NCBI GenBank assembly: GCA_950295325.1
Contig: OX485804.1
Location: forward strand, 18,476,001 to 18,540,000
Source: Polytrichum commune
Taxonomy: Eukaryota > Streptophyta > Polytrichopsida > Polytrichales > Polytrichaceae
Length of the DNA stretch: 64,000 nucleotides
Direction of reading: 5' to 3'
Below the pieces are notes generated by a model that was given only the letters and a program-made list of their open reading frames with translations, made no database searches and had not been told where the DNA came from. This document shows positions 4,701-59,673 of this stretch, piece after piece; the stretch's first letter is position 1; each line of letters starts with the position of its first letter. The translations under genes were made by a program, and so were the position numbers.

Positions 4701-4782
4701 GTCTCAGATACATACCATGGCAATAAACTACAAGCATATGAGACTTCCCGGACAACTCATCTTGCATCGGTGAACATCGTGT

Positions 4783-5300
4783 CATTATCTTTATTTAAAT
4801 AAAAATCTATCATTATTGTAGATTTGCAAGAAACTCTTTAACGCAAGAAGAGTTGGCTAGGTCTCATTTACTTGTAGTGATAGATTTGCAAAAAATTCTG
4901 CGACACATGGTGTGTTGTGTAAGATAGCTCGTGTAGTTACTATAGTGGTAGCAACTGAGGCAAGAGATTTGTTGCAGAGGATTAAACTATAACCCTTCCC
5001 ATTTTGCGTTGAGTTACTGGCACTGTAGTAGTTCAACATGGTGTTGTTATCTTTTTTTTAAATCGAAATGTATCAGTAGAGTAGATTTGCAAGAAACTCT
5101 TCAATGCAAGAAGAGTTGCCTGCTCCTCATTTACTTGTAGTGATAGATTTGCAAAAATCTCTGTGACACATGGTGTGTTGTGTGAGATAGCTCGTATAGT
5201 TACTATAGTCGTAGCAACTGAGGCAACAGATTTGTTGCAGAGGATTAAACCATGATCCTTCCCATTTGAGTTGAGTTACTGGTACTGTAGTGGTTGAACA
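4783..5300. repeat. Tandem duplication, period about 273 bp
   Basis: Two adjacent copies (about 4783-5036 and 5056-5300) share GTAGATTTGCAAGAAACTCTT, a GACACATGGTGTGTTGTGT segment and TTTGTTGCAGAGGATTAAAC. The landmark GTAGATTTGC lies at 4818 and 5091, giving the period. Small ORFs read here are by-products of the repeat, not genes. Confidence 0.85.
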
Positions 5301-9006: not shown

Positions 9007-10245
9007 TCAGATTCTTGAGCCCTGCAACCATGTAGATGGAGGGGAGATTTGCCTAGGTACAAACTGTTCCCGAATTGCAGGGGTCCAAAACTGGCCAAAG
9101 AGTTCATGAGGATCAGCAGAGAGTCGTCGACGTTGTGATGGGGGAGGGTTAATTGCGAAGTCATTAGGTTGAGAATCTAGGATGGTGGTTGTATCCTCAT
9201 CACGATCCGAAGCTGGTTGGCCGAAGTCATTCCCAAAAGCATTTAGATCAGCTACCCTCCTCTTGTCTGTAAACAAGTCGGAGGAATCATCCTCACAATC
9301 ATCATCAGCATCATCTTCTTCATTCAAATCTCCTCTAAACCCTAACCCTTGTGTTGGTGCAGGTGCAGGTGCAACAGGCGTGTTGGAGCAGACTCCAAAC
9401 CGAGGAGGAGCAGGCTCGTTGGAGGCAGCAACTTCGGCAGCAACCTGTACCTTGAGCTTTGCAAGCTCTTGGGTCATGCGGAGGTGGAGCCACTGTTTAG
9501 CAAGGTCACAGGTAATGTTCTTATCCTCTACTGTAAACAAGCTAAAAGCATTTTACTGAGCAATTTGCTCAGCTTTCTTCAATGTAGCTGCAGCAAAGTC
9601 AGTTGTAGCTTTTGCATTAGCGCGCAAAACTAGCTCCTTTCCCTTACTTTGTGCATGCTCGTTTTTTGCCGACTTAGCACCCTGTGGTCTTGTCTGTGCA
9701 GGTGGCGATTCGGTGGAGGGAGCCTGGCCATTCGGAGAAAGCAGATCGCGACGATCAACAGGCAGCCCCTCTCTTGAGGGCGGATAAAACCCTCCACCCT
9801 TTCGCTTGCCCATAAATATTGCCGCAAACCTAGGATAGCTCTTTAACAACAACCAGCAATGTTTTAGAACAAATGCCTTCCCACATTTTTGCTTGTACAA
9901 GCTCATAGCATCTAATACAAAATCATCCTCACTCTTCCCACTCTCATTCAGATCTCTCACTGACTGATAGCAACCACTGAACTTGGCGACAGATTGCTTG
10001 ATGTCAGACCATTTTGTCTCTAGAGACCTAGCAGGACGATCAGCTCCTCCCTCGGGTTTGTGTCTAGCATAGTGCGTTGCTACATTGATCCAAAATTGTG
10101 CATTCTTCTGCCCTATCCCTCTCCTGGCATCGGTGGAAGTATGCATAAAACTTCGGCAACACTGTTCTTCCTCCTCCGGACAGAAGTTCCTGCCCTTCTT
10201 GGTCCTCCCACCCGTTGCAGGCACACCCCCCCCCCTTCCTGACAT
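9007..10245 (-). pseudogene. Myb/SANT-like Harbinger accessory protein with one internal stop
   Basis: The 230-codon N-terminal part starts at the ATG at 10243-10245 (MSGRGG...). It has a Myb/SANT-like domain at about residues 18-120 with the usual spacing of aromatic residues: an acidic start, FWINVATHY, LETKWSDIK, a KFSGCY motif, then W-LLKSYPRF. A basic, Ser/Pro-rich linker follows. An in-frame TAA at 9553-9555 interrupts it, and the same frame stays open for a further 177 codons to 9007. That second part has the K/L/Q-rich helix and acidic tail typical of NAM-associated proteins of plant Harbingers. Such proteins bind transposon ends and help the transposase into the nucleus. A nonsense mutation is the simplest reading, and a short unrecognised intron is the alternative. 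The start lies about 220 bp inside the right end of the element. Confidence 0.72.
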
Positions 10246-10464
10246 GGTGGAATAAGTCCAAAGTTGGGCTAACTGCCGGATGGCGTTGGCGGGCAGAACA
10301 CGGTACCCGAGGCCAATATACCCGAAGAGCTCCTCCCAAATGCCCGGTCCGGCACCCTTTATGGCGTTAGCGTCGACTGGTGGACGTTAGAACTTGGCGT
10401 CCTGGGCACTGGATTTCCAGGAGTGCCGTTCAACTGACTTATACCTCTGCTGGTGGGGACGCTC

Positions 10465-13913: not shown

Positions 13914-14445
13914 AGAAGTTAATCAAGTTAAGTTATACGGAGAGGGCCGCGTTTACACCCGGAAAATTCTAAGCTGAGGGCCCTTGAGAATCGTACCAAG
14001 GGTCCCGGGCTAGATCACATTTTCATTCTGTTGGGCATCGCCTCTCCCATGCTTTCTTCACTGCCCGGTTTTCTCCATGTTTCCTACCCGCACCTACGTG
14101 GGAATTCTTCCTCGTTGGGAACCAATGTGACAATAAAATTACATCAAAATTACGAATATCCTGATACAACATCCCAGATGATCAGAAGTTAATCAAGTTA
14201 TACGGAAAGGGCTACATTTACACCCGGAGGTTCTAAGCTGAGGGCCCTTGAGAATCGTCCCAAAGGTCCCGGGCTAGATCACATCTTCATTGGGCTTGGC
14301 CCCGCCCCTCCCATGCCTCCTTCATTGTCCGGTCTTCCCCAGGCTCCCTGCCCGCACCTGCGTGGGAACTCGTCCTCGCTGGGAACCAATGTGACAATAA
14401 AATCACACCAAAATTACCAATATCCTTATATCAATTGGGATGTTG
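13914..14445. repeat. Two direct copies of a 270-bp GC-richer repeat
   Basis: AGAAGTTAATCAAGTTA starts at 13914 and again at 14184. Both copies continue through ACACCCGGA, GCTGAGGGCCCTTGAGAATC, GGTCCCGGGCTAGATCACAT and AACCAATGTGACAATAAAA. The period is 270 bp. Confidence 0.9.
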
Positions 14446-47308: not shown

Positions 47309-47320
47309 TAGAATTACAGA
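47309..47320. repeat. LINE target site duplication (left)
   Basis: TAGAATTACAGA is repeated exactly at 59662-59673. Confidence 0.88.
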
Positions 47321-47372
47321 GGAATTGAATGGATGGGTGGATGGTTGGTAAGGTAGCTCGGGGGAGAGGAGA

Positions 47373-50300
47373 ATGAGACACACAGAGCGATGGCGAGTAC
47401 GCCGCGGCACTCAGCTCCTCCGAGAATGGAGATCCGGCAGCCAAGACAAAGAATGCAGGGTTACAGACAGAAACCTCAGGCAGACAGAAACTTCAGATAT
47501 ACAGAGGAAGGATCCACCTACTTCCGAAGCAACAGATCCACAGGCAGAGTGCGCGCAGGATCGAAGAAGCACTAACCCAGATCCAGATCTGGGAATCACC
47601 CACAAGGCGAACACCGAACCAACGAGGACCAACACCGAATCACCACGGCGAGAGAGCCAAGAGCCGACTACAGCAAGAGCGCACCGAGGAGAGAAGAAGA
47701 ACTTAAACACAGATCCAGATCTAAAAGCAGACAAGGGAGGAGCATTTCGGCCAGTATGCGACATCAACCTTGGGGTCACACCCCTCTTCATAAAATGGGT
47801 GCTTATAAGCACCATGACTTTGTGTATCTACACACCTCACACATCTCACACACAAAAGCTCCCCTCACCAACCTCTCCATCAAGATGCCACTACCCCCCA
47901 ATGCGGCCACACACTATCTACCCATCAAAACACCACACAATAACACTAAAAGAAATCCCACCATACTTCCACTCCCTACTACCAATCCTCACGAACACAA
48001 CCCTACACCACCAACAAGAGCCACCTCCAAGATCGGCACGCACTCCACACACACCAATGCCGCCGCCGCCGCCACCCACACCACACAAAACAACACACAC
48101 AATGGTTAGAAACACCACTTGCACTTACCAATCACCTACCAACACCAAAAATCACCCAAATACCCAAAACACACTAGTTCCAAACTTACCTCCAAGAAAA
48201 GTACATCGCCGCCCCAAGATCCTCCCCACAAAGCAAGATAAGCTACCCCTTTGTCAGAAAACCACCAAAACACACATAAGACATAAGCAAAACGCTGTCA
48301 CACACACATGCTCACCACCCACAACCCCAAAAAATGCCCACCCAACAAACAATCCAACCCACACAAAGCATACAACCCCCCAAACTCAACCAAAATCCAC
48401 ATCACTCCCCCATATTAGATCTGACATTCCAACCCATCACCCTAAGTATGTAGAAACCCACAAAACCAACCTCCCAAATCTACTCACACACCCAAAAACA
48501 ACAGACCGCCGCCCATCTCTCTCGCTCCACACACACACTCAAATACCTTCCCAACACACACATTCTCACACTCCTCTCCCTCTCACATCGCACATCTCTC
48601 TCCCTCCCACCTCCCACACACCTCTCCCTCCCACCTCACACACATCTCTCACACCTCACACCACCTCTCACACCTCTCTTCCCACCCTCCCAGACACAAT
48701 GACACCCAGCAGTAAGCCAGTAGCCGCGGACTCAACAGCAGCGTCCCGAATGCAGCGCCTCCGCCACTCAGGATCAAGCAGTCGCAGCCTCAGGAGTCAA
48801 GCAGAAGGGAGAAGGGAGGAGAGAATCAGCGGCGGGCAACCCAACACCGGCGCAGGTGCGGAAGCGGGAGGCGCCAGCGGGTTCCACATTGACACAGAGG
48901 CGGGAGCGGGAGAGGGAGGCGCATGGGAAGCAGCCAACGGCCGGGGAGCAGCCAGGCTCTACTCGGCAGAGAAGCAGCCAACGGCCGGGAAGGAGGCAGC
49001 CGGAGCAGCTAATGGCAGTGAAGGAGGCGGCTCTAGAATCGAGGTCGGGAGCACCAACAGCAGGCACCGTAACACCAGCACCCGAAGTGCAGGAAGAAGG
49101 AGGGCACTTATCCAAGATTACAGTGAGGATGAAGAAGAGATCGACATACCACCTAGCCAACCAGCAATTTTTAAAGAGAAAACCACACCATACCATGATG
49201 CCGACATCGACATGCAACTCGACAATGTCACACCCGAGCATGGGGGAAGCTCCCTCCACATTTCTACCTCAAACGATGAGTACTTGGCCGCCCCCCGCCA
49301 AGCCGTCATGTCGCTCGACCGAATGGACATCACCAACCTCGATGACGCGACACCTCCCAACAACCCACACAAAAGTCCTAGGATAGAGTCCGTGAAAGAC
49401 ACACAAAGCACCAAACGTAGGAGGAGCGAAGTAGGGGGTCATGCACTCAACTCCGACGCAAGCAAACTTTCAAACACGCGCACCAAAGAGGCAATCCCAA
49501 GCATTGACATTGTGTCACACATGTGGTTAGGCTTCTCAATACACGAGGCCATCGCTACACAAAGGGGTAAGGGAATCATCCATGAAACTCGTACCCTTGA
49601 GGAATTTGAGAGATTAGGGACCCCCACAAATGAAGTCATAGAGTTCAAAACCATTAGACGTGCATTTCCAAGAGTACCACAAATATGTTATCCAAATGAG
49701 AGGCCGGATGCGGTACCCGGTAACCACCTCCACTTCATGCAAATTCCAAGGCAAGAAAGAGTGGACACCACCACCGGACTTTCCGAGGGCTTCCACATCA
49801 CCATCCGGTTCGACTACGGCTTCAAAAGCATGAGCAAACACGAAGCACGAGGAGCATGTGTGGAACGACTACGACAAATGGACATCCCACTTGGCTCAAC
49901 TTACTCCAACCCAATCGATATTGGGACCAATGCCGTCACCAAACATTGGGCGGGTTTCATTAAGGTACATCTAAAAAACCCACAACAAGATGGAATAGCG
50001 TTACTTAGAGGCCATAGAGCATTTGCTATGGCAATGGAGGATGGTGAAAGGGTCATAGGTAAAGTAGAAAAGGGGTATGAATTAGTTACTAAAGCCCGCA
50101 ACCTAAGGTTACACCTCAAAGGTGAAACCCTCCGCCATGAACATGCATCTACCATATTTGAGTCACTAATGCAAGAGAGTTACTACAATGGCCACCAACA
50201 CGAGTTTATGGGTTTTGCCAAACCGGAACTCGATAAAAATTTTGTTTTTCTTACTCTCACCATGGAGGAGGCTAGGGATTTAGTACTCAAGGAAGGAATT

Positions 50301-51125
50301 GTTTACAACAATGAGAGGTTACAAGTGAGCATCACCCGCCATAGGAATGGCAACAACCCATCCGAACTCCGAATTAGCACAACTCTAGTGGCTAATAACC
50401 TCCCACAACGTGAGACACCAACCGCCATCACCAAGGCCATCAAGCAAATTTTTGGAGAAGACAATGTCGTAGGCATTAGCTTTGGCAACACTAATCAAGG
50501 CACCACCAACAAGCAAGCAGGATGGTGCCACATTCAGTGTCTTAACGCCGCGGTCTACACGGCATGGAAACACAAGTCTACCTACATTCTAGGACGACAC
50601 ATCGACTTCATTCCGCACCATGGGAGCATCGATGGAACGGCCCCCAACAAGACGGCGATCCGACTAGCTCAAGCTCCCGTTAGAGAAGTCATCGCGGATA
50701 AAATCCAAGCTATGGGTAATGCCACCAACCTCCACCCACTCATCACCGAGAAGCATCTTACAAAAACCATGAAGGAATTCGAGAATAAACTAGATGAGAA
50801 GTTTAGCTCTCTCACTACCACCATAAACAACCACACGGATCGGAGACACGATGCAACCACAACGACCATCACCAACCACTCCACCAACCTCCATGCGCTA
50901 CTTGGTACGATAGCACATGAGTTCCAACAATCCAACATCCGCATGCAAGGCATCATCACCGGTCTCTCCACCGCCGCCCCGGAACTATTGCATAGGTCCG
51001 CCCCATCACCAACAATACACGGCCTCAATACAACCGCCCTACCTCTACCACTCCAAGCCCCCCCCCCCGGATTCCAAAACAACCAACAAATGTACCATCA
51101 AGGACCCCACACATTTAATGGATAG
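47373..51125 (+). CDS. LINE ORF1 protein with RRM-like domain
   Basis: The open frame is 1,250 codons. The first 440 or so are low-complexity (Thr, Pro, His, Asn) and may be 5' UTR open by composition. The ATG at 48699-48701 (residue 443) is an alternative start giving 808 residues. Residues about 450-720 are charged and disordered, with a basic TKRRRSE motif that could serve nuclear entry. Residues about 720-1030 look folded. Residues about 1003-1095 have an RRM-like pattern (a strand with TTLVANNLP, a helix, then AGWCHIQC as a candidate RNP-type strand). A heptad-like stretch at about 1130-1205 (KTMKEFENKLDEKFSSL) suggests a coiled coil. ORF1 proteins of LINEs bind element RNA and act as chaperones. 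No zinc knuckle was seen. It ends about 320 bp before the listed ORF2 start. Confidence 0.75.
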   Translation: MRHTERWRVRRGTQLLREWRSGSQDKECRVTDRNLRQTETSDIQRKDPPTSEATDPQAECAQDRRSTNPDPDLGITHKANTEPTRTNTESPRRESQEPTTARAHRGEKKNLNTDPDLKADKGGAFRPVCDINLGVTPLFIKWVLISTMTLCIYTPHTSHTQKLPSPTSPSRCHYPPMRPHTIYPSKHHTITLKEIPPYFHSLLPILTNTTLHHQQEPPPRSARTPHTPMPPPPPPTPHKTTHTMVRNTTCTYQSPTNTKNHPNTQNTLVPNLPPRKVHRRPKILPTKQDKLPLCQKTTKTHIRHKQNAVTHTCSPPTTPKNAHPTNNPTHTKHTTPQTQPKSTSLPHIRSDIPTHHPKYVETHKTNLPNLLTHPKTTDRRPSLSLHTHTQIPSQHTHSHTPLPLTSHISLPPTSHTPLPPTSHTSLTPHTTSHTSLPTLPDTMTPSSKPVAADSTAASRMQRLRHSGSSSRSLRSQAEGRREERISGGQPNTGAGAEAGGASGFHIDTEAGAGEGGAWEAANGRGAARLYSAEKQPTAGKEAAGAANGSEGGGSRIEVGSTNSRHRNTSTRSAGRRRALIQDYSEDEEEIDIPPSQPAIFKEKTTPYHDADIDMQLDNVTPEHGGSSLHISTSNDEYLAAPRQAVMSLDRMDITNLDDATPPNNPHKSPRIESVKDTQSTKRRRSEVGGHALNSDASKLSNTRTKEAIPSIDIVSHMWLGFSIHEAIATQRGKGIIHETRTLEEFERLGTPTNEVIEFKTIRRAFPRVPQICYPNERPDAVPGNHLHFMQIPRQERVDTTTGLSEGFHITIRFDYGFKSMSKHEARGACVERLRQMDIPLGSTYSNPIDIGTNAVTKHWAGFIKVHLKNPQQDGIALLRGHRAFAMAMEDGERVIGKVEKGYELVTKARNLRLHLKGETLRHEHASTIFESLMQESYYNGHQHEFMGFAKPELDKNFVFLTLTMEEARDLVLKEGIVYNNERLQVSITRHRNGNNPSELRISTTLVANNLPQRETPTAITKAIKQIFGEDNVVGISFGNTNQGTTNKQAGWCHIQCLNAAVYTAWKHKSTYILGRHIDFIPHHGSIDGTAPNKTAIRLAQAPVREVIADKIQAMGNATNLHPLITEKHLTKTMKEFENKLDEKFSSLTTTINNHTDRRHDATTTTITNHSTNLHALLGTIAHEFQQSNIRMQGIITGLSTAAPELLHRSAPSPTIHGLNTTALPLPLQAPPPGFQNNQQMYHQGPHTFNG

Positions 51126-51449
51126 TGCCCCCTTAGCATATCACAAATGGCCGCTCTACCTTATATGTTATAGTTTGATGTTATCTTATAATAAAGAGCC
51201 CACATTCTTGTTCCTACTCCAAGTACTCTCTTACTTTATGTATCTCTCTACATATCCCCCCTATAGCAAAAAATATACAAACACACTAAAACCATTGTAT
51301 TGGCACAACAAAAACACCCACACTAAGCACCATCAAATACAAACCGGAAAACCCATAAGGAAGCTGCCCCCACACACATCACCAATCCCCCATACACACC
51401 CACACTACCGCATGAGAAAAATAATAACATTAAGTCTCACCCTCATAAT
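51126..51449 (+). other. ORF1-ORF2 junction with a possible leader frame
   Basis: A different frame is open from inside ORF1 (50917) to 51489, with ATGs overlapping the ORF1 stop and at 51412. The latter gives MRKIITLSLTLIIWIS, which looks like a signal or membrane segment, and then enters a run of about 12 Cs (about 51461-51472). A one-base length change or slip in that run would join it to the ORF2 frame. The ORF2 frame itself is closed by TAA at 51324 and has no ATG until 51852, and the TTG at 51450 is only a nominal start. Confidence 0.5.
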
Positions 51450-54400
51450 TTGGATAAGCCACCCCCCCCCCCGTCACCCACCAAGATAATCTTACATACC
51501 ATAACAAATCCAACCCCCATAACCACCCCACCAAAAAAATTCCCATTTAGTATAACCTTCACACATAACAAGACCCACTACACAACCCCCACTTACAATC
51601 TAATACAACATACACCCACAACACAATCCCTCATTAACACCTTAATCCCTTCCACACACCCCCTCAACAACCATATATATAATAAACCACATTCATGCAC
51701 ATCCCACAACCACTTCACACAACAACCACACCCACTTATCACATACCACCCCAACCCCAATAAAGGCAACACCCACACTTACAATACACACAAACACTCC
51801 TACAACAACTGTAATACCCAACATAACACCCAAAATAAGATAACCTCACCAATGGCCCCAATAGACATACTAACCCTCATAAGCAACATATATCACATAA
51901 CGCACACCCATCATAAAAATCCAAAAATTAAATCCATAAAATATTACACTTGGAACAACTCCGCAATAATCCTTCAACACGGAGATGTGGAACCTAATCC
52001 TGGCCCAATATCACAAACTCCCATGAACCGACCTCAAGAATACACACATACACAACACCAATATGTTATACCCAAAATACTAACACTCAAACCCCAATAT
52101 GGACACCTAGAGGAATTATTTGAATTTCATGCCTCTTCCCCCCGAAACCTAAACCTAACACCCTTACAACACAAATCATCAGTCCACACACAAAAAGAAA
52201 TGCCACAATCTTACCTAACGGAAACACCAACAACACCCACACTACAGTCACATACACTCCCACTCCCACCACACATCACGCTATCACCAAAACATCAACA
52301 CATCGATAATAATCACACACATTACCACAATAGTATTTTCACTACCTTCTCCAAACACGAAACTAACCAAAAAAAAGGCACCACATGTACATCCACCACA
52401 CATGAACAAATACACAACCTACACACAAATCACAACAACACAACCCACACAATCACCCTCATTAATATAATGATACATATAGGCAACATCTACTACATAA
52501 CACACACATACCACACAAAACCAAGAATTAAAACCATAACATATTACACTTGGAACAACTCTACACTCATACTCCTCCACGGAGACATTGAACTAAACCC
52601 GGGGGCGCTCTCAACCATCCTCAAGAACCTCCCCAAAGAATATACACAAAGGCAAAAACAATACTTTATTCCAAATACCCTAACACTCAAACCTCAATAC
52701 GCCCACCTTGAAAAACTATTTGAACCCCATTTAAACAAAAACACCCCCGACTCTCAAGAACTAACACACCTAAAAAACCACTCATCATTACTCTCAAACT
52801 ACCCCACACACCACCAAATATATGCCCTTATTATAACATATAGCCCACTACCACAAATATGTAATCAAAAAATGACTAACAAACTTGACCCCAGATACCT
52901 AACCATCCTCCGAAGAATACAAAAAATGCCAATGAATATGCACCCACGCACATCATATGAACATAACTTGCATACCCCAACAATAATCACCATTCCACAA
53001 GCTTATTCCATCATCAATGACAAAATCGCTAAGGGAATACCCATAACCGCAGAAAACCTACAAAATGAAATATCCCACCTCCCAAATAAAATAGTGCAAG
53101 AACTAACTAAATGCTCCCACACAATAAAAGGATACCAACCCAACTCACACATACCTAACTATGACATTCCACACATACATACCAGGCCAAATAACCCAAC
53201 AACCCAAACCCTGAAAATAATCACTTGGAACACTGGATGTATCAACTCTAGCCTCCCCGGTATCCAAGACCTCACCCAAACACTACACAACAACCCTCAT
53301 ATTATACTCATCCAGGAAACCAAAATCCCAAAAACAAAATCCACATCATACATAGATCGCCAACTAAAAGAATACAAAATCATATACAACAACTCAAACA
53401 CCACATCCCAAAGACATAATAAATATGCGGGCCCCACGCAAGCTAGAGGTGGCATCCTAGCCATGATACCAATATCAATATACACAAACGAAAACATCAC
53501 CAAAATACCAACCCCAAGCCTAATCTCACCTTACCTACAAGCCATAATAATCAATAACAAACCACTAACACCGCTAATCATCCTAAACATGTACATGCCA
53601 TCACACATAGAAGACGAGTACCTAATACCCGAAATCCAAAACCAAATTCAAAACATCATAGTACAACACCCCCACCACACCACCATACTAGCCGGAGACT
53701 TTAACCGAGACATACTACTACAAGGAAGAACCAATAATAGCACTTCCACCCCGCCTAATATGGAGGACCAAGAATGGGCATGCTTCATACGAAACAACGG
53801 ACTCAAAGTGGTCCATAACCCAGTAAAATTCACAAGGCAAGGAGGCCACAACTACACATCAACTAGCCATATAGATGGCTTCTACACCAACGACCCCAAT
53901 ATCACCAATCTTCATAGCCACACGCTAACCAACCTAAACCAAAACTCGGATCACTACCCAGTCCAACTACAATTAGCCCCCAATACTATAGTCATCAAAG
54001 AATCCACCACCCCCATAAACACCCCACGAATCACATACCCCATACCCCCTAACAACCTCCAAAACTTACAAACAACCTTTATAGGAAAACAAAATATAGC
54101 AATAGAGAACCTTACACAAATACTCCACCAAGAATATCTTACCCCAACACAATGGGAAGACACACAATTCAAACTCCAAGAAATTATCAACTCTCTCAGT
54201 CAATGCATAGAACAAACATGCATGACCTACCCCACCCCACCACTACCAAATAGGGTAAAACCTCAAGGAGGATTTCTCCCCAGGACCCAACAGAATAAAT
54301 GGAAACATCAATTGAAAATATACCATAACACCCGGAAAGCCATAAGAGCCGCATGTCACTACCCGCACACACAACTACATAACCACTCAGATATAAAAAA

Positions 54401-55928
54401 TCTTCAACTACTAAGAAACCCCAATATTCCACCACTACCCCCACATCCCACAGAAATACACACATGGATTGCTCAGCTAGCCACTATAGAGAAAAACGCG
54501 AAGACAGAAGCCCACAAAATCATAACCAAGCAAACCTCACTTAATTGCAAAGCCGCCATTAACAAATATAGAATCCTACTAAATACTAAACCCAAAATCA
54601 TCCACAAAAAAATATTTCACCCAACAACCACCAACACACTCGATTGTGTACAAAACCCCCAAGGTCAAATCCTCACCAAACCCGCCGAAATAGCTAGGGA
54701 GATATACCATACCCAACAAACCTCATTCCAACGACAAGCCCCCCTATATGAGGACATCACGGACCACCCTAATACGTGCATATGCGCAATAAGAAGATAT
54801 CCGTGGCACTCACATCAAGGAATCATTCTAGAAAAACGAGGCAACCCCAATACACAAATAAGTAACCAATTCACTAGAGAAGTGTACGATTGTTGCGTCA
54901 AAAGCCTAACAAAAGGGAAAGCCCCGGGCCTAGACAATATCCCAAATGATATCATTAAAACACTACCCACACAATGGCAAGACCTCCTATACCTATTTTC
55001 CAAACATTGTTACAAACAAAGAACGATCCCGCACTATTGGAAACATAGTAAGACCATCTTATTACACAAAAAAGACGACCCCACCCACATATCCAACTAT
55101 AGACCAATCTCCCTAGCTAATACAATCTATAAACTATACACTAGTACACTAACATCACTCTTAACAAGCTACGGAGAAAAACATAGATTACTACACTTTA
55201 GCCAAGAAGGCTTTCGACCACAACGAAATACCTCGAGACAAATTCAAACGATCATAGCAACACTAGAAGATGCAAGACTAACCACAAAAAATATATACTT
55301 AACCTATATAGACTTTAGAAATGCCTTCGGCTCTATAGACCACGCAAGACTCCTAGCCATAATGGAGGACCTAGGCTACCCATTAGACGCGGTAGAAATC
55401 GTAGGTAATATCTACACCAACTCCACCACATCCTTCACCGGGAGTCATTTTGGCACGACACCCCCAATAGAAATAAGCCGCGGGACCATACAAGGGGACA
55501 CCCTTAGCCCATATTTTTTTATCATTTTTCTCGAACCACTACTAAGATGGCTAGAAAAAAATAACATAGGTTATCATTTCAACACGTCCTCCGCCACATG
55601 TACCACAACCGCATACGCGGATGACCTAGCTATTATAACGGACCACATATTACATATTCAACCACAAGTGACAAAACTCCAAAAATTCGCGAAATGGTCC
55701 CACATGGACCTCAATCTATCAAAATGTGTCATTACCGGATGCCCTAATAAATCTAAACTAAAACCCTCTACCTTCAAAGCATACATCCAATCACAACATA
55801 TCACATACAACTCTCAAAATTTCCCCATTCTCACCCAAAACGAACCATATACATATTTAGGAATAAACCTCACACCATCACTCAAATGGAACCTACAAAA
55901 AGAAATAACGATGAAGAAAGTCAAATAA
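51450..55928 (+). CDS. LINE ORF2, 5' part: 2A motifs, APE endonuclease, reverse transcriptase
   Basis: This is the first 1,492 codons of the retrotransposition enzyme. The start is uncertain: TTG at 51450, the first in-frame ATG at 51852, or a frameshift from the leader. Residues 178-186 are GDVEPNPGP (2A) and 378-386 are GDIELNPGA. The APE-type endonuclease spans about 588-845, with Asn in TWNTG (594), Glu in IQET (623), GDFN (749-752), SHID (D809) and SDH (834-835), all expected for nicking target DNA. The reverse transcriptase spans about 1150-1450, with PGLDNIPND, NYRPISL, YIDFRNAF, GDTLSP and the catalytic YADD (1389-1392). A TAA at 55926-55928 stops it within the region after the RT palm. 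The same frame then stays open for about 300 more codons, so the stop is most likely a nonsense mutation. Confidence 0.88.
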   Translation: MDKPPPPPSPTKIILHTITNPTPITTPPKKFPFSITFTHNKTHYTTPTYNLIQHTPTTQSLINTLIPSTHPLNNHIYNKPHSCTSHNHFTQQPHPLITYHPNPNKGNTHTYNTHKHSYNNCNTQHNTQNKITSPMAPIDILTLISNIYHITHTHHKNPKIKSIKYYTWNNSAIILQHGDVEPNPGPISQTPMNRPQEYTHTQHQYVIPKILTLKPQYGHLEELFEFHASSPRNLNLTPLQHKSSVHTQKEMPQSYLTETPTTPTLQSHTLPLPPHITLSPKHQHIDNNHTHYHNSIFTTFSKHETNQKKGTTCTSTTHEQIHNLHTNHNNTTHTITLINIMIHIGNIYYITHTYHTKPRIKTITYYTWNNSTLILLHGDIELNPGALSTILKNLPKEYTQRQKQYFIPNTLTLKPQYAHLEKLFEPHLNKNTPDSQELTHLKNHSSLLSNYPTHHQIYALIITYSPLPQICNQKMTNKLDPRYLTILRRIQKMPMNMHPRTSYEHNLHTPTIITIPQAYSIINDKIAKGIPITAENLQNEISHLPNKIVQELTKCSHTIKGYQPNSHIPNYDIPHIHTRPNNPTTQTLKIITWNTGCINSSLPGIQDLTQTLHNNPHIILIQETKIPKTKSTSYIDRQLKEYKIIYNNSNTTSQRHNKYAGPTQARGGILAMIPISIYTNENITKIPTPSLISPYLQAIIINNKPLTPLIILNMYMPSHIEDEYLIPEIQNQIQNIIVQHPHHTTILAGDFNRDILLQGRTNNSTSTPPNMEDQEWACFIRNNGLKVVHNPVKFTRQGGHNYTSTSHIDGFYTNDPNITNLHSHTLTNLNQNSDHYPVQLQLAPNTIVIKESTTPINTPRITYPIPPNNLQNLQTTFIGKQNIAIENLTQILHQEYLTPTQWEDTQFKLQEIINSLSQCIEQTCMTYPTPPLPNRVKPQGGFLPRTQQNKWKHQLKIYHNTRKAIRAACHYPHTQLHNHSDIKNLQLLRNPNIPPLPPHPTEIHTWIAQLATIEKNAKTEAHKIITKQTSLNCKAAINKYRILLNTKPKIIHKKIFHPTTTNTLDCVQNPQGQILTKPAEIAREIYHTQQTSFQRQAPLYEDITDHPNTCICAIRRYPWHSHQGIILEKRGNPNTQISNQFTREVYDCCVKSLTKGKAPGLDNIPNDIIKTLPTQWQDLLYLFSKHCYKQRTIPHYWKHSKTILLHKKDDPTHISNYRPISLANTIYKLYTSTLTSLLTSYGEKHRLLHFSQEGFRPQRNTSRQIQTIIATLEDARLTTKNIYLTYIDFRNAFGSIDHARLLAIMEDLGYPLDAVEIVGNIYTNSTTSFTGSHFGTTPPIEISRGTIQGDTLSPYFFIIFLEPLLRWLEKNNIGYHFNTSSATCTTTAYADDLAIITDHILHIQPQVTKLQKFAKWSHMDLNLSKCVITGCPNKSKLKPSTFKAYIQSQHITYNSQNFPILTQNEPYTYLGINLTPSLKWNLQKEITMKKVK
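51852..52133 (+). other. 2A module 1 (apparently functional motif)
   Basis: This is a roughly 94-codon module with a hydrophobic or aromatic lead (KYYTWNNSAIILQH) directly before GDVEPNPGP at 51981-52007. The D-V-E-x-N-P-G/P consensus is complete. In known 2A peptides the ribosome fails to form the Gly-Pro bond, releasing the upstream peptide and continuing from Pro. The module goes on to LTLKPQYGHLEELFEFH, which is also repeated in module 2. Confidence 0.82.
52452..52733 (+). other. 2A module 2 (degenerate duplicate)
   Basis: It is offset from module 1 by exactly 600 bp (200 codons) and is similar along its length at both DNA and protein level. The motif reads GDIELNPGA at 52581-52607. The final Pro, needed for skipping, is Ala here (codon GCG), so it is predicted inactive. 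The surrounding YYTWNNS and LTLKPQY motifs are kept. Confidence 0.8.
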
Positions 55929-57150
55929 CAAAGCCAACTCTTAACTACCTCACCGGCTAGCCTCACACAAAAAATCAAAATCTTAAATACAGTCATTAAA
56001 CCGCGAATAGCATACGCTTATTACGCCGTCCCATTCTCCAAACCGGATATTAAAAAATTAGACAAAATCATTAGCAAATTAACCAAAGAAATTTGCAACA
56101 TTCCTAAAAGCTCGGCCAACATTCTCACCCACCTCCCACAAGAGAGCTTTGGCATTAACGTCAACTCCCTACTACCCGACTACATCCGATGCATAGGACA
56201 ACAATTAATCCAAGCACTTAACGACCCGGGCCAATTAGGCATTATATACCAAGGGCTAACCAAACATATAGCGGCCAAGTATGGTGGGGCCCGATACCTC
56301 CCCAAACTCAAACAACAAGCATGTGTCCGTTCCCCTATAGCCCGAACACTCTTCCTCCTTGAAAGAGAATATGAAATTCACGTCCATTCCACAAGCCAAG
56401 CATTCCCCATCAAAGAAACATCACTAGAAAGAATTTGGAAAACCAACCCAAATTATAACACCCTAACGGATATATCCAAAGCCAAGACCCAAAAATATCT
56501 AGACAAACTATACATATACGGCATTACCACACTAATACAAATCCAAAACTCTACTACCAAAGCCATACTAACCCCGAAAGAATTTCAATCCATTTACAAA
56601 CACATACCCAAAACCATCAAGGAGGCTCTCCAACAAGCAACAATAATGTTCCCCCCCCCACCCACAAACTCTACAAACACAATACAACAAACACCAACAC
56701 AAAGCGAGGGCATGGTGAATATCCCCCCCCCTAGGACAAGCAATCCAAACAATAATAAAAGAAAAGACCTCCACCAAAAAAGACAAATGGGGTGCACAAG
56801 CAATAAGGACGAACTACCTTTGCCAATGGCAAACTCCACAAGGCATCACACAACAATGGAGAAGTGAGGTAGAACTACTACACCCGGATAATATATTTCT
56901 AGAACATAACATACTATGTATTACACAATATCACACAAAGCAAGCTGAACTATTAACCACCCACACATATGCTAATTGCCTCAATCACATACAATCAAAA
57001 GACAACAAATTCATACACCCCCCTCTTCACATCACCAACCTAAAATTATCCATACAAGAATGCAACCCGGATAAAGACATTCAAGTAAACCAACCAACCA
57101 TCCAACTACAAAACTCCGAAGCCAACATATATGACCAAAAAGGAAACTAC
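55929..57150 (+). pseudogene. LINE ORF2 middle part, beyond the stop and through a frameshift
   Basis: The RT frame continues past the 55926 stop with coding-like sequence (thumb and connection region, for example IKILNTVIKPRIAYAYYAV and KQQACVRSPIARTLFLLERE) to the C runs near 56650 and 56723-56731. Beyond these the sense frame moves forward by one base and runs without a stop into the 57151 frame (WGAQAIRTNYLCQWQTPQG). One extra C in either run explains the shift. The 73-codon ORF at 56646-56867 is the old frame running on after the lesion. Confidence 0.78.
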
Positions 57151-59463
57151 ATGGCCACCATCACTACAGAAAGGCTACAATGGCTATGGAACCAATTTTC
57201 TTACCACCACTTCTCACAAATTACAAAAGCCCTCCAACCCCCACCACAAAACTTTGAAACTGAAATACTTTGGCTAATACAAAGATACATAACCATACTC
57301 CCCAAAAGAAAGCCAAAAAACATACAACCCCAAAACATGCACCATACAATACACCCGACAATTATCACAACATTAATAAACTCCCTCAAAATCACGCACT
57401 CCTACTATTCATCCCCACTCACATGCCCCACACAACTCACACAATATCACTCACCCCATAACCGAGACATAATATTTGGCTCCCTAGGACACGCACAAAT
57501 ATCTAGATGGAAAGGCATTGGTTTAGCCTACCCCACAGACCATAAAACAACCATTGAAGCCATCCACTGGGCTAGAATGGCGGCCAAAGAAGACTCAAAC
57601 ACGATCACCATACTCATAATCAACCATAACGACTGGACCACACAACAAATCCCACTTACCACAAGTGGCGACATACACACCCTCGCAACCATCCCTCCGC
57701 ATACCATACTATATAACCCTACGCCGGAATGGCCAAAATACTACCAATACGTGGAACCCTCGCTCACAACAATACTATGTATACATAACCACGCCCACCT
57801 CACACCAAGCCTAAAAACCCCACAAGATCTCGCACAAGTACTAGAACATACCATCAACGCACCCATAGACACATTCCCCATCAAACCCACAACGCCAAAT
57901 TACCACATTAAATTCTCAAACATATGGAAAAACGCCCCCATAAAAAACATCCCTCCCCCACCAACAATCCCCCAATCAAACCTCCCCATTAAATATTACC
58001 ACCAACACCCCCCCAAATTCCACCCACAACATTGCATGTACACAGATGGCTCATTTATTCCACCAACTAAGAACTCCGAAGGTCAAATAGAGGGTGATAT
58101 CGCAGGTTCAGGAGTATATAGCCCCAACGCAAACATCCGTATAGCAGAACGATTACCAGGATATCAAAACATACTTAGAGCAGAATTAAATGCTATACTC
58201 ATAGCAGTCAAAACCATTCAAGTCACAAAAATCGAAACACACATCTTTACAGATAGCCTTAATAGCATATATCTACTTAGTAATCATATACAACACCCAA
58301 CCTCACAACACCACCACCCGGACAAAATCCTCATAGCCGCCATAATACACCAAATTTATCTAACACCACACTTAGTACATATACATAAAGTACGTGCCCA
58401 CACGGGCATCAAAGGAAATGAAATAGCCGATGCGCTAGCCAACGAAGGCACAAATATAGAAAAACCCACTCCCACACCCCATATACACATCGCACACGCT
58501 ACACCATATTGGCTAGCAAGTTGTCCCACAGCCACACGTAATGGGGCAATCCGCAACTTGCACACATTCATCACAAAAACACACGAAAAACAAGAAATTA
58601 GGCTGGCCCAACATAAACACCCATATGTAGACAAATGGCTATCCAACGACCAAATAAGCCACAAACTCTCCAACCACTTTTGGAAAAACAATAAAATAAC
58701 GGACGCCCAAATCACCCAAACTTTAAAATTTCGATATGCCCAATACATGGGTAACCATAGAAAGAATATTTTCTGGCCCCTCAAATTTCAAAACCCAAAC
58801 TGTACATTATGCCGTAAAAATGAAAGGGATACATGGCCACACTTACTCTCAACGTGCGAACACCCATACTTAAAGGGCCTAAGAATAGCACGCCACAACA
58901 AGGCAGTACATCTCATCACCCAAACACTCCAAGCCAACAAACACACCAAATATTACACACTAACAAATGCAGGTAATATCAACAACAACAAGCAAGAACA
59001 AACAGTCCCCGAATGGCTCATCGAATGTCTATGCCCTCAAACCGGGTGTCAGTGTCACGCTAGACTAAGACCCGACATCCTATGTATTATAGGAGCCCCT
59101 AACCACACCCCAACACCCATGCTACCATCCCACGCACGAACCATCCAATTCATTGAATTCACGTACTGTCACGACAGATTCCCAGAACAAGCCATAACAC
59201 ACAAACATGCCAAATACGATCCATTAATCAACACTATACAAAGCAAGGGATGGAAAATAAACCCTCTTATAACCATCACAGCAGGAGTTAGAGGTGCCAT
59301 ACACGAACACTCCATCAAAAAATTAGAAGACCTCAAAATCCCAAAATCTAATATCAAAATCCTCATGAAAAACATACACCAAAATGCCATCAAATATCTC
59401 ACATACCTCGTTTTAAATAAAAGAAAACTCGATAACAAAAAAAATCCCGTTGCACCCCCCTAA
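57151..59463 (+). CDS. LINE ORF2, 3' part: RNase H, CCHC, RLE-like nuclease
   Basis: This is the continuation of ORF2 in the shifted frame (770 codons). The listed ATG is not a true start, because the frame is open upstream. RNase H spans about residues 293-435: YTDGS (D299), RAEL (E345), TDS (D368), then a VRAHTGIKGNEIADALA motif (D427). All four acidic residues are present, for removing RNA from the cDNA hybrid. A CCHC knuckle follows at C551, C554, H564 and C569. The C-terminal region (about 630-720) has RPD (D642), FIEF (E669), AKY (K688) and an ITAGVRG strand. These resemble the PD-(D/E)xK restriction-like endonuclease that follows the CCHC in R2, R4 and Dualen elements. The RLE call is by motif only. 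Confidence 0.82.
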   Translation: MATITTERLQWLWNQFSYHHFSQITKALQPPPQNFETEILWLIQRYITILPKRKPKNIQPQNMHHTIHPTIITTLINSLKITHSYYSSPLTCPTQLTQYHSPHNRDIIFGSLGHAQISRWKGIGLAYPTDHKTTIEAIHWARMAAKEDSNTITILIINHNDWTTQQIPLTTSGDIHTLATIPPHTILYNPTPEWPKYYQYVEPSLTTILCIHNHAHLTPSLKTPQDLAQVLEHTINAPIDTFPIKPTTPNYHIKFSNIWKNAPIKNIPPPPTIPQSNLPIKYYHQHPPKFHPQHCMYTDGSFIPPTKNSEGQIEGDIAGSGVYSPNANIRIAERLPGYQNILRAELNAILIAVKTIQVTKIETHIFTDSLNSIYLLSNHIQHPTSQHHHPDKILIAAIIHQIYLTPHLVHIHKVRAHTGIKGNEIADALANEGTNIEKPTPTPHIHIAHATPYWLASCPTATRNGAIRNLHTFITKTHEKQEIRLAQHKHPYVDKWLSNDQISHKLSNHFWKNNKITDAQITQTLKFRYAQYMGNHRKNIFWPLKFQNPNCTLCRKNERDTWPHLLSTCEHPYLKGLRIARHNKAVHLITQTLQANKHTKYYTLTNAGNINNNKQEQTVPEWLIECLCPQTGCQCHARLRPDILCIIGAPNHTPTPMLPSHARTIQFIEFTYCHDRFPEQAITHKHAKYDPLINTIQSKGWKINPLITITAGVRGAIHEHSIKKLEDLKIPKSNIKILMKNIHQNAIKYLTYLVLNKRKLDNKKNPVAPP

Positions 59464-59636
59464 ATATTTCCCCACCACTCCTTTACAATAACCCCCTTAC
59501 ACTACACTTTCTCTTTCTTTTTACTAACAGAGCCCACCTCCTAACGGAGGTATAACTCCCCATGCTACAACACGGCCCGCCGTGTTTAGCATTCGGACAA
59601 CGGGCTCGCATTCACGCCGGCACAATGTGCGGGCGT
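59464..59636 (+). promoter_or_regulatory. LINE 3' UTR with three hairpins
   Basis: Three inverted repeats follow one another: CCTCC-TAAC-GGAGG (59537-59550), ACACGGCCCGCCGTGT (59570-59585), and ACGCCGGCAC-AAT-GTGCGGGCGT (59614-59636, one mismatch). They sit just before the tail, where a LINE reverse transcriptase with stringent template choice would bind. A role in target-primed reverse transcription is inferred. Confidence 0.65.
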
Positions 59637-59661
59637 TACTTTTTCTTTTCTTTTTCTTTTC
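59637..59661 (+). repeat. LINE 3' tail, TTTTC-type repeats
   Basis: After GGGCGTTAC the element ends in a T-rich run with TTTTC units instead of poly(A), up to the target duplication. Short tandem repeats at the 3' end are known from several LINE clades, while plant L1 elements normally end in poly(A). Confidence 0.75.
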
Positions 59662-59673
59662 TAGAATTACAGA
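59662..59673. repeat. LINE target site duplication (right)
   Basis: TAGAATTACAGA is identical to 47309-47320. Confidence 0.88.

Follow-up and report, generated by a model that had tools for sequence, protein, structure and literature searches.

Organization of the locus

The 64,000-nucleotide stretch of Polytrichum commune DNA analyzed here (the window; contig OX485804.1, positions 18,476,001 to 18,540,000) contains a 12.3-kb non-long-terminal-repeat (non-LTR) retrotransposon. The second open reading frame (ORF2) of its family encodes an apurinic/apyrimidinic endonuclease (APE) ahead of the reverse transcriptase (RT) and, at the C-terminal end, a putative R2-type restriction-like endonuclease (RLE), and the family very probably belongs to the Dualen/RandI group of dual-endonuclease long interspersed elements (LINEs). 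The copy in the window is a recent insertion, slightly decayed, of an abundant moss family. It is bounded by an exact 12-bp direct repeat (Table 1), for which we calculate about 0.01 chance matches over the stretch searched. A second copy in the genome, L018, is 99.2% identical to it across 8.5 kb, hence our view that movement was recent. The coding strand is rich in C and A, with a GC skew as low as -0.68.

The ORF1 frame had no match in a Pfam scan, and those diverged copies that match it do so only from 49.0–49.7 kb onward. By eye, positions 50385–50900 of ORF1 read as a stretch like an RNA recognition motif, followed by a coiled coil; Pfam is without a match there. In ORF2 the APE motifs ITWN, QETK, GDFN, HIDGFY and NSDHYP are in place, and the RNase H domain lies downstream of the RT, the position looked for in a Dualen/RandI element. 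A search of PHROGs matched nothing, and NCBIfam returned only RT, nuclease and RNase H matches, all far below its cut-offs.

The initial annotation of this DNA had described an APE before the RT and, after the RNase H, a CCHC knuckle followed by RPD...E...K and a VRG strand; both are there, the former as a Pfam match with motifs aligned to relatives, the latter at 58801–59304. Chromodomain-like and PCIF1-like segments between the RT and the RNase H, 2A-like motifs and a 3' RNA structure with covariation come in addition to the domains that it listed. Its extent for the element, 53211–59380, takes in the core ORF2 domains and falls short of the full copy at both ends (Table 1). It had also placed both nucleases in one ORF2. 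This holds for the family, as copy L009 has a single open frame of 2372 codons with APE, RT, PCIF1-like, RNase H, CCHC and RLE parts, but not for the window copy itself, which is broken by a stop and a frame change. No other of the 13 fetched copies unites all these domains in one frame; five stop-free RLE matches, L009 included, lie in frames of more than 2000 codons, with APE content established for L009.

Table 1. Position and basis of the features of the retrotransposon copy in the window
Feature	Position	Strand	Basis
5' target-site duplication TAGAATTACAGA	47309..47320	+	exact 12-bp match to 3' flank
Dualen-type (very probable) non-LTR retrotransposon, whole copy	47321..59661	+	bounded by target-site duplication
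ORF1 frame, 1250 aa	47373..51125	+	reading frame
ORF2 first part, putative start ATG of MAPIDIL, frame opening at 51450	51852..55925	+	
2A-like motif HGDVEPNPGP	51978..52007	+	
Second 2A-like motif HGDIELNPGA (last residue changed in window copy)	52578..52607	+	
APE endonuclease domain	53211..53969	+	Pfam PF03372 E 9.1e-6; alignment of its motifs to those of five relatives
Reverse transcriptase domain	55065..55871	+	Pfam PF00078 E 7.8e-32
In-frame stop breaking ORF2 in window copy	55926..55928	+	reading frames
ORF2 frame-change region, window copy	56697..56730	+	tblastn with L009 protein switches frame
Chromodomain-like segment (weak)	56731..56943	+	placed by likeness to L009, L011, L012, L013; window piece itself unscanned
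ORF2 second part, 770-aa frame	57151..59463	+	
PCIF1-like methyltransferase domain (Pfam part)	57229..57495	+	PF12237 E 1.5e-7
RNase H domain	58030..58449	+	Pfam PF00075 E 2e-14
CCHC knuckle C551/C554/H564/C569	58801..58857	+	
Putative RLE: RPD (PD at residues 641-642), E669, K685/K688, VRG strand	59062..59304	+	
3' untranslated region RNA structure: closed stem with two hairpins, plus third hairpin	59530..59639	+	
T/C tail, TTTTC-type repeat	59640..59661	+	
3' target-site duplication TAGAATTACAGA	59662..59673	+	exact 12-bp direct repeat

Copies, selection and insertion sites

The genome searched comprised 64 contigs (408 Mb), seven of them large (C1–C6 of 45–78 Mb and C7 of at least 40 Mb). 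A search for the RLE yielded at least 142 scored matches on C1–C7 from 6811 first-look candidates. For comparison of copies we used a set of 14, composed of the window copy and L009–L021 (all 13 RT matches of the 801–807-base kind). The APE was found in 13 of the 14 (L020 being the exception), with stops in six of these 13 and only partial in three. The RLE was likewise found in 13, two of them with stops; the stretch fetched for L021 stops short of this domain, and the genome search puts an RLE just beyond it.

The median ratio of nonsynonymous to synonymous substitution (dN/dS) between copies was 0.158 for the APE (5 copies), 0.046 for the RT (9), 0.075 for the RNase H (9), 0.095 for the RLE (11), 0.139 for the PCIF1-like part (12) and 0.193 for the linker (7), all of them rough values, because dS between subfamilies is near saturation with a median of about 1 to 2. 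Copies with stops or with less than 85% cover, and pairs with dS below 0.08 or saturated, were left out. Even so roughly estimated, dN/dS of both nucleases is well below 1.

At the 3' end, an RNA structure was derived from an alignment of eight of the 14 copies, the near-duplicates L014, L015, L017, L018 and L019 being omitted and the fetched L021 lacking the end. Pairing holds in 97.8% of cells, against 32–40% in slid controls, a comparison that favours the structure in that it was derived from the same alignment. Both sides have changed at 12 of the 34 pairs. In 500 shuffles, four of five measures were never reached; the remaining one, further pair types, was reached in 400. Rfam, searched with the whole window at gathering scores, gave nothing, and the 3' end gave one match at chance level (E 0.72).

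The 3' flanks of all 13 copies for which they were printed are mutually unlike by eye, each following a T/C tail. Exact end repeats were seen in five of the eight copies examined, of 12 bases in the window copy, L009 and L012, 11 in L010 and 9 in L018, the last counting only by its position at the 5' border, as a longer chance match lies inside L018; the other three have no settled exact repeat (L011 ambiguous, L015 with one mismatch, L013 with none). Each of the five exact repeats starts with a T that may also be part of the tail.

The C-terminal domain as a putative restriction-like endonuclease

Nine database proteins match the C-terminal part of ORF2, and the PD, E and K residues are kept in all eight that reach the motif, at identities of 44–78%. 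A family profile built from eight members (the window and P0001–P0007) was aligned to a set of four RLE-bearing elements, P0026–P0029. The score was 97.2 at a probability of 98.2%, whereas 100 column shuffles gave at most 20.4; for the nuclease part without the CCHC knuckle, the score was 50.0 (probability 94.0%) and 100 column shuffles reached at most 17.3. The resemblance to the R2-type RLE that had been read from the motifs alone is therefore borne out by profile comparison, far above shuffles. The nuclease part of P0026 in turn matched a solved R2 protein across the RLE with an E of 3.5e-12. The distance from the PD aspartate to the glutamate is 27 residues in the moss protein, which exceeds the aspartate-to-aspartate distance in P0026. 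On this profile evidence, the C-terminal part appears to be an R2-type RLE.

Would such a domain still cut? It could instead be an inactive relic with a structural role only, the APE doing all cutting. The PD is lost in L012, L014 and L020, three of the 11 RLE copies that align without stops (the other eight keep it, and E and K are intact in 11/11), and the unlike 3' flanks of 13/13 copies fit dispersed insertion of the APE type. Against a relic, PD, E and K are conserved in all eight of the nine database relatives that reach them; the median dN/dS of the RLE is lower than that of the APE; and the exact end repeats measure 11 or 12 bp in four cases out of five. We consider a relic unlikely, while granting it some plausibility.

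Reverse transcriptase phylogeny and relatives

The RT tree was computed from 54 rows, 11 of an original 65 having been removed because they were partial, duplicated or short or had no RT. The window copy, the genome copies and the database proteins P0011, P0012, P0014, P0015 and P0019 form one branch (support 100/99), which joins P0021–P0025 at 100/100. These 24 dual-type rows and P0026–P0029 fall together on one side of a branch with support of 95/90; the sequence of P0027 begins at the RT, so its APE status cannot be read. The database protein P0014, which comes from an ENA contig, falls within the moss genome copies, so public data may hold sequence of this species or a close one.

Among the relatives outside the moss branch, P0022 and P0023 (about 2500 aa) resemble the moss family in carrying RT, PCIF1-like, RNase H, CCHC and RLE-like parts in one frame. 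Their identity to the window frame is 27% and 33%, respectively; P0022 has the RLE motif, and its APE motifs could be aligned. P0024, from the green alga Parachlorella kessleri, has an RT and a weak APE (E 5.9e-4, below the Pfam cut-off) and groups with P0022 in the tree (98/89). The listed protein ends before the position of the RLE, unlike those of the moss family.

That P. kessleri is the only named close relative found might suggest that mosses acquired the family horizontally from a green alga and did not inherit it by descent. Among the papers listed by the literature searches (judged by title and abstract start, with most subscription papers outside the collection), none was a Dualen report from a moss or other land plant. 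On the other side, the rows of the moss copies form their own branch beside P0021–P0025, itself a group supported only at 92/67, and the genome holds diverged subfamilies of the element, which suggests long residence. Transfer is a quite unlikely origin. The initial annotation had offered an extension of the clade to land plants or a transfer as alternatives; since the host is a moss, the dual-nuclease design does reach land plants, and the findings neither demonstrate a horizontal transfer nor require one.

Hardly credible is the reading of the family as a common plant L1 that has a zinc knuckle and a tail with no more than a likeness to an RLE. This reading has in its favour that the same genome contains seven APE-bearing LINEs (L022–L028, the label L1 being inferred from APE and RT and not from a named reference), five of which show a CCHC pattern. 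These seven fall in two separate RT groups of the tree. Plant L1s thus share with the moss family an APE, a CCHC knuckle and the host genome. They differ in the RT, for a clade of the dual-type rows with L022–L028 was rejected by the approximately unbiased (AU) test (p-AU 1.3e-5), and no RLE pattern was seen in L022–L028; the tail of the moss family, on the other hand, matches RLE elements far above shuffles. The RT-bearing frame had five solved matches at E 0.01, three of them named R2 and the other two 8gh6 and 8ibw, and human L1 was not among the five. Plant L1 membership is thereby ruled out on the RT side, as far as the L1 part of the phylogenetic check that the initial annotation had called for is concerned, and the RT groups with dual-nuclease and other RLE-bearing elements.

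That the family is an assembly artefact or algal contamination is exceedingly improbable: the window lies inside a 70-Mb contig, RLE matches occur on all seven large contigs and the window copy sits between exact 12-bp repeats.

Probable assignment to the Dualen/RandI group

Both R2 elements and the moss family have a C-terminal CCHC knuckle and an RLE, and the RT-bearing frame finds its best solved match in R2. An APE is absent from R2, which goes into ribosomal DNA; the moss family has an APE and unlike flanks. R2 membership was ruled out on these two grounds, the flanks being judged by eye in 13 copies.

The Dualen group is defined by the possession of both endonucleases (PMC3636483, PMC4640811), a rare design known until now chiefly from algae. 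Two further reports place Dualen in relatives of Chlamydomonas (PMC8226300) and list LINE/Dualen in cryptophytes (PMC12747079). Like the moss family, Dualen/RandI elements of Chlamydomonas and other green algae combine APE and RLE with RT and RNase H, and their RT lies near those of RLE-bearing elements. The moss family differs from them in its land-plant host and in having no peptidase by Pfam; a cysteine protease was reportedly part of Dualen in the first Chlamydomonas description, by Kojima and Fujiwara in 2005. The moss family also has 2A-like motifs and a chromodomain-like segment, which algal members may or may not share. Its tails are of the T/C type, whereas algal RandI ends in (ATT)n or (CTATTT)n according to PMC3747384.

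On the strength of the defining nuclease pair and the RT position, we file the family as a Dualen/RandI-type LINE, as the initial annotation had proposed: both nucleases occur in one family whose RT stands apart from the host L1s. The assignment is very probable, in a tree without named Chlamydomonas Dualen/RandI or RTE references; the protein searches listed no such Chlamydomonas sequence, the nearest named row being that of P. kessleri. That composition of the tree weighs against it, as do several further points. The family profile, compared directly with solved structures, found 8gh6 and 8ibw (both named 'Reverse transcriptase-like protein', and presumably silkworm R2) at E 0.07 and over the CCHC part only. 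With this direct search so weak, the homology of the RLE is carried via the intermediate P0026, by profiles and not by a fold model. The distant P0023 reads RFD for RPD, and Pfam at E 0.1 found no APE in P0022 or P0023. No peptidase family was found by Pfam in the frames of L009, L013 and the window, a scan that diverged proteases may escape; the definitions of the group cited above do not require such a domain. To these are added the lost PD in three copies, the near-saturated dS, the three copies with unsettled end repeats and the conditional repeat of L018.

Additional modules of ORF2

Non-LTR retrotransposons bearing 2A are known, and the moss family resembles them in that its replication ORF has NPGP close to the N-terminus; the moss copies differ in that they often have two motifs. 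Of the 13 fetched copies, 11 have a 2A-like GD(I/V)xxNPG, seven of them two such motifs, not always in an open frame; it is also present in P0010, P0013, P0016, P0017, P0018 and P0020. In the window copy, each of the two motifs is preceded by a similar YYTWNNS leader. While the NPG core is kept in those 11 copies, the preceding acidic residue varies: the E of the classic form is present in 7 of 18 motif instances of the fetched copies, and Q or H takes its place in the other 11, for which reason 2A activity is not assured. The classic form is D(V/I)ExNPGP in PMC4981915, which also mentions non-LTR elements with 2A.

The segment after the RT is weakly chromodomain-like. Pfam Chromo matched three of the four copies scanned, with a best E of 0.0073, below the Pfam cut-off, and E was 0.12 when the whole L009 and L013 frames were scanned. 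Among solved structures, CDYL2 chromodomains take the first four places (E 0.046–0.087), and an unrelated protein comes next at 0.1.

The PCIF1-like domain matches at 31.6 bits in the window, just above the cut-off of 31.1, and below the cut-off in L009 (3.0e-6) and L013 (7.2e-6); its alignment continues to about 57800. The profile had only two solved matches, both of them PCIF1, at E 0.012. The segment is recognized by Pfam, below the cut-off, in P0022 and by alignment only in P0023. The asparagine of the NPPF motif has a role in PCIF1. Another residue stands at its position in 6/6 aligned rows, which makes methylation unlikely. No report of a fusion of PCIF1 and a retrotransposon was among the papers listed by a literature search.

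Other features of the window and assembly

Ten other frames of the window were scanned by Pfam, with one family found. This is a NAM-associated C-terminal domain (E 2.3e-6) in a frame on the minus strand at 9553–10386, possibly a second Harbinger protein. Tandem arrays of about two units of 263–264 bases each lie at 4773–5300 and 13930–14430. Elsewhere in the assembly, contig C8 has intact matK and photosystem II genes and so is a plastid contig. Its matK is 97% identical to one database protein, 89% to that of Dawsonia, a member of the Polytrichaceae, and 75% to that of Oedipodium; among the best 120 of 351 matches, all those with a name, down to 56% identity, are from mosses, which makes the host a moss of the Polytrichaceae. 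A literature search gave no Polytrichum genome paper. The matK fragments in C1, C2, C3 and C5 look like nuclear insertions of plastid DNA.

Proposed mechanism and implications

From the family to which the element is assigned we infer target-primed reverse transcription, for which a sequence of events can be suggested. The 2A-like motifs would release ORF2 from its leader, and the freed protein would bind its own transcript through the 3' RNA structure. One nuclease would nick the target, and the new 3' end would serve as primer for copying the RNA from its U/C-rich tail; RNase H would then remove the RNA, and the other nuclease would cut the second strand, mostly 11–12 bases off. The weakest step is the division of labor, for which our best guess, possible rather than probable, is that dispersed sites are first nicked by the APE and then receive their second cut from the RLE. 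As for the extra modules, insertion may be guided to particular chromatin by the chromodomain-like part, and the PCIF1-like part may be a binder of capped RNA that leaves it unmethylated.

Taken as a whole, the picture would be that of a dual-endonuclease LINE lineage that was in green plants before land plants arose and is still active in mosses, whose nucleases split the first nick and the second cut at an 11–12-base offset, with the help of chromatin-reading and dead cap-methyltransferase modules. We put it forward tentatively, and in its entirety it is doubtful. If true, the family would be an intermediate still alive today, with each of the two cleavage steps assignable to a domain of its own. 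APE-bearing LINEs are thought to have descended from RLE elements by replacement, with Dualen as the link (PMC4640811). With its frame-intact copy and its many subfamilies, a land-plant lineage of this kind would open the dual-nuclease stage to testing in moss. It also bears on how the second half of LINE integration is completed, a process called very poorly understood in PMC6895275. Lastly, functions that are not usually tied to LINEs are suggested by the three kinds of extra module, 2A-like, chromodomain-like and PCIF1-like.

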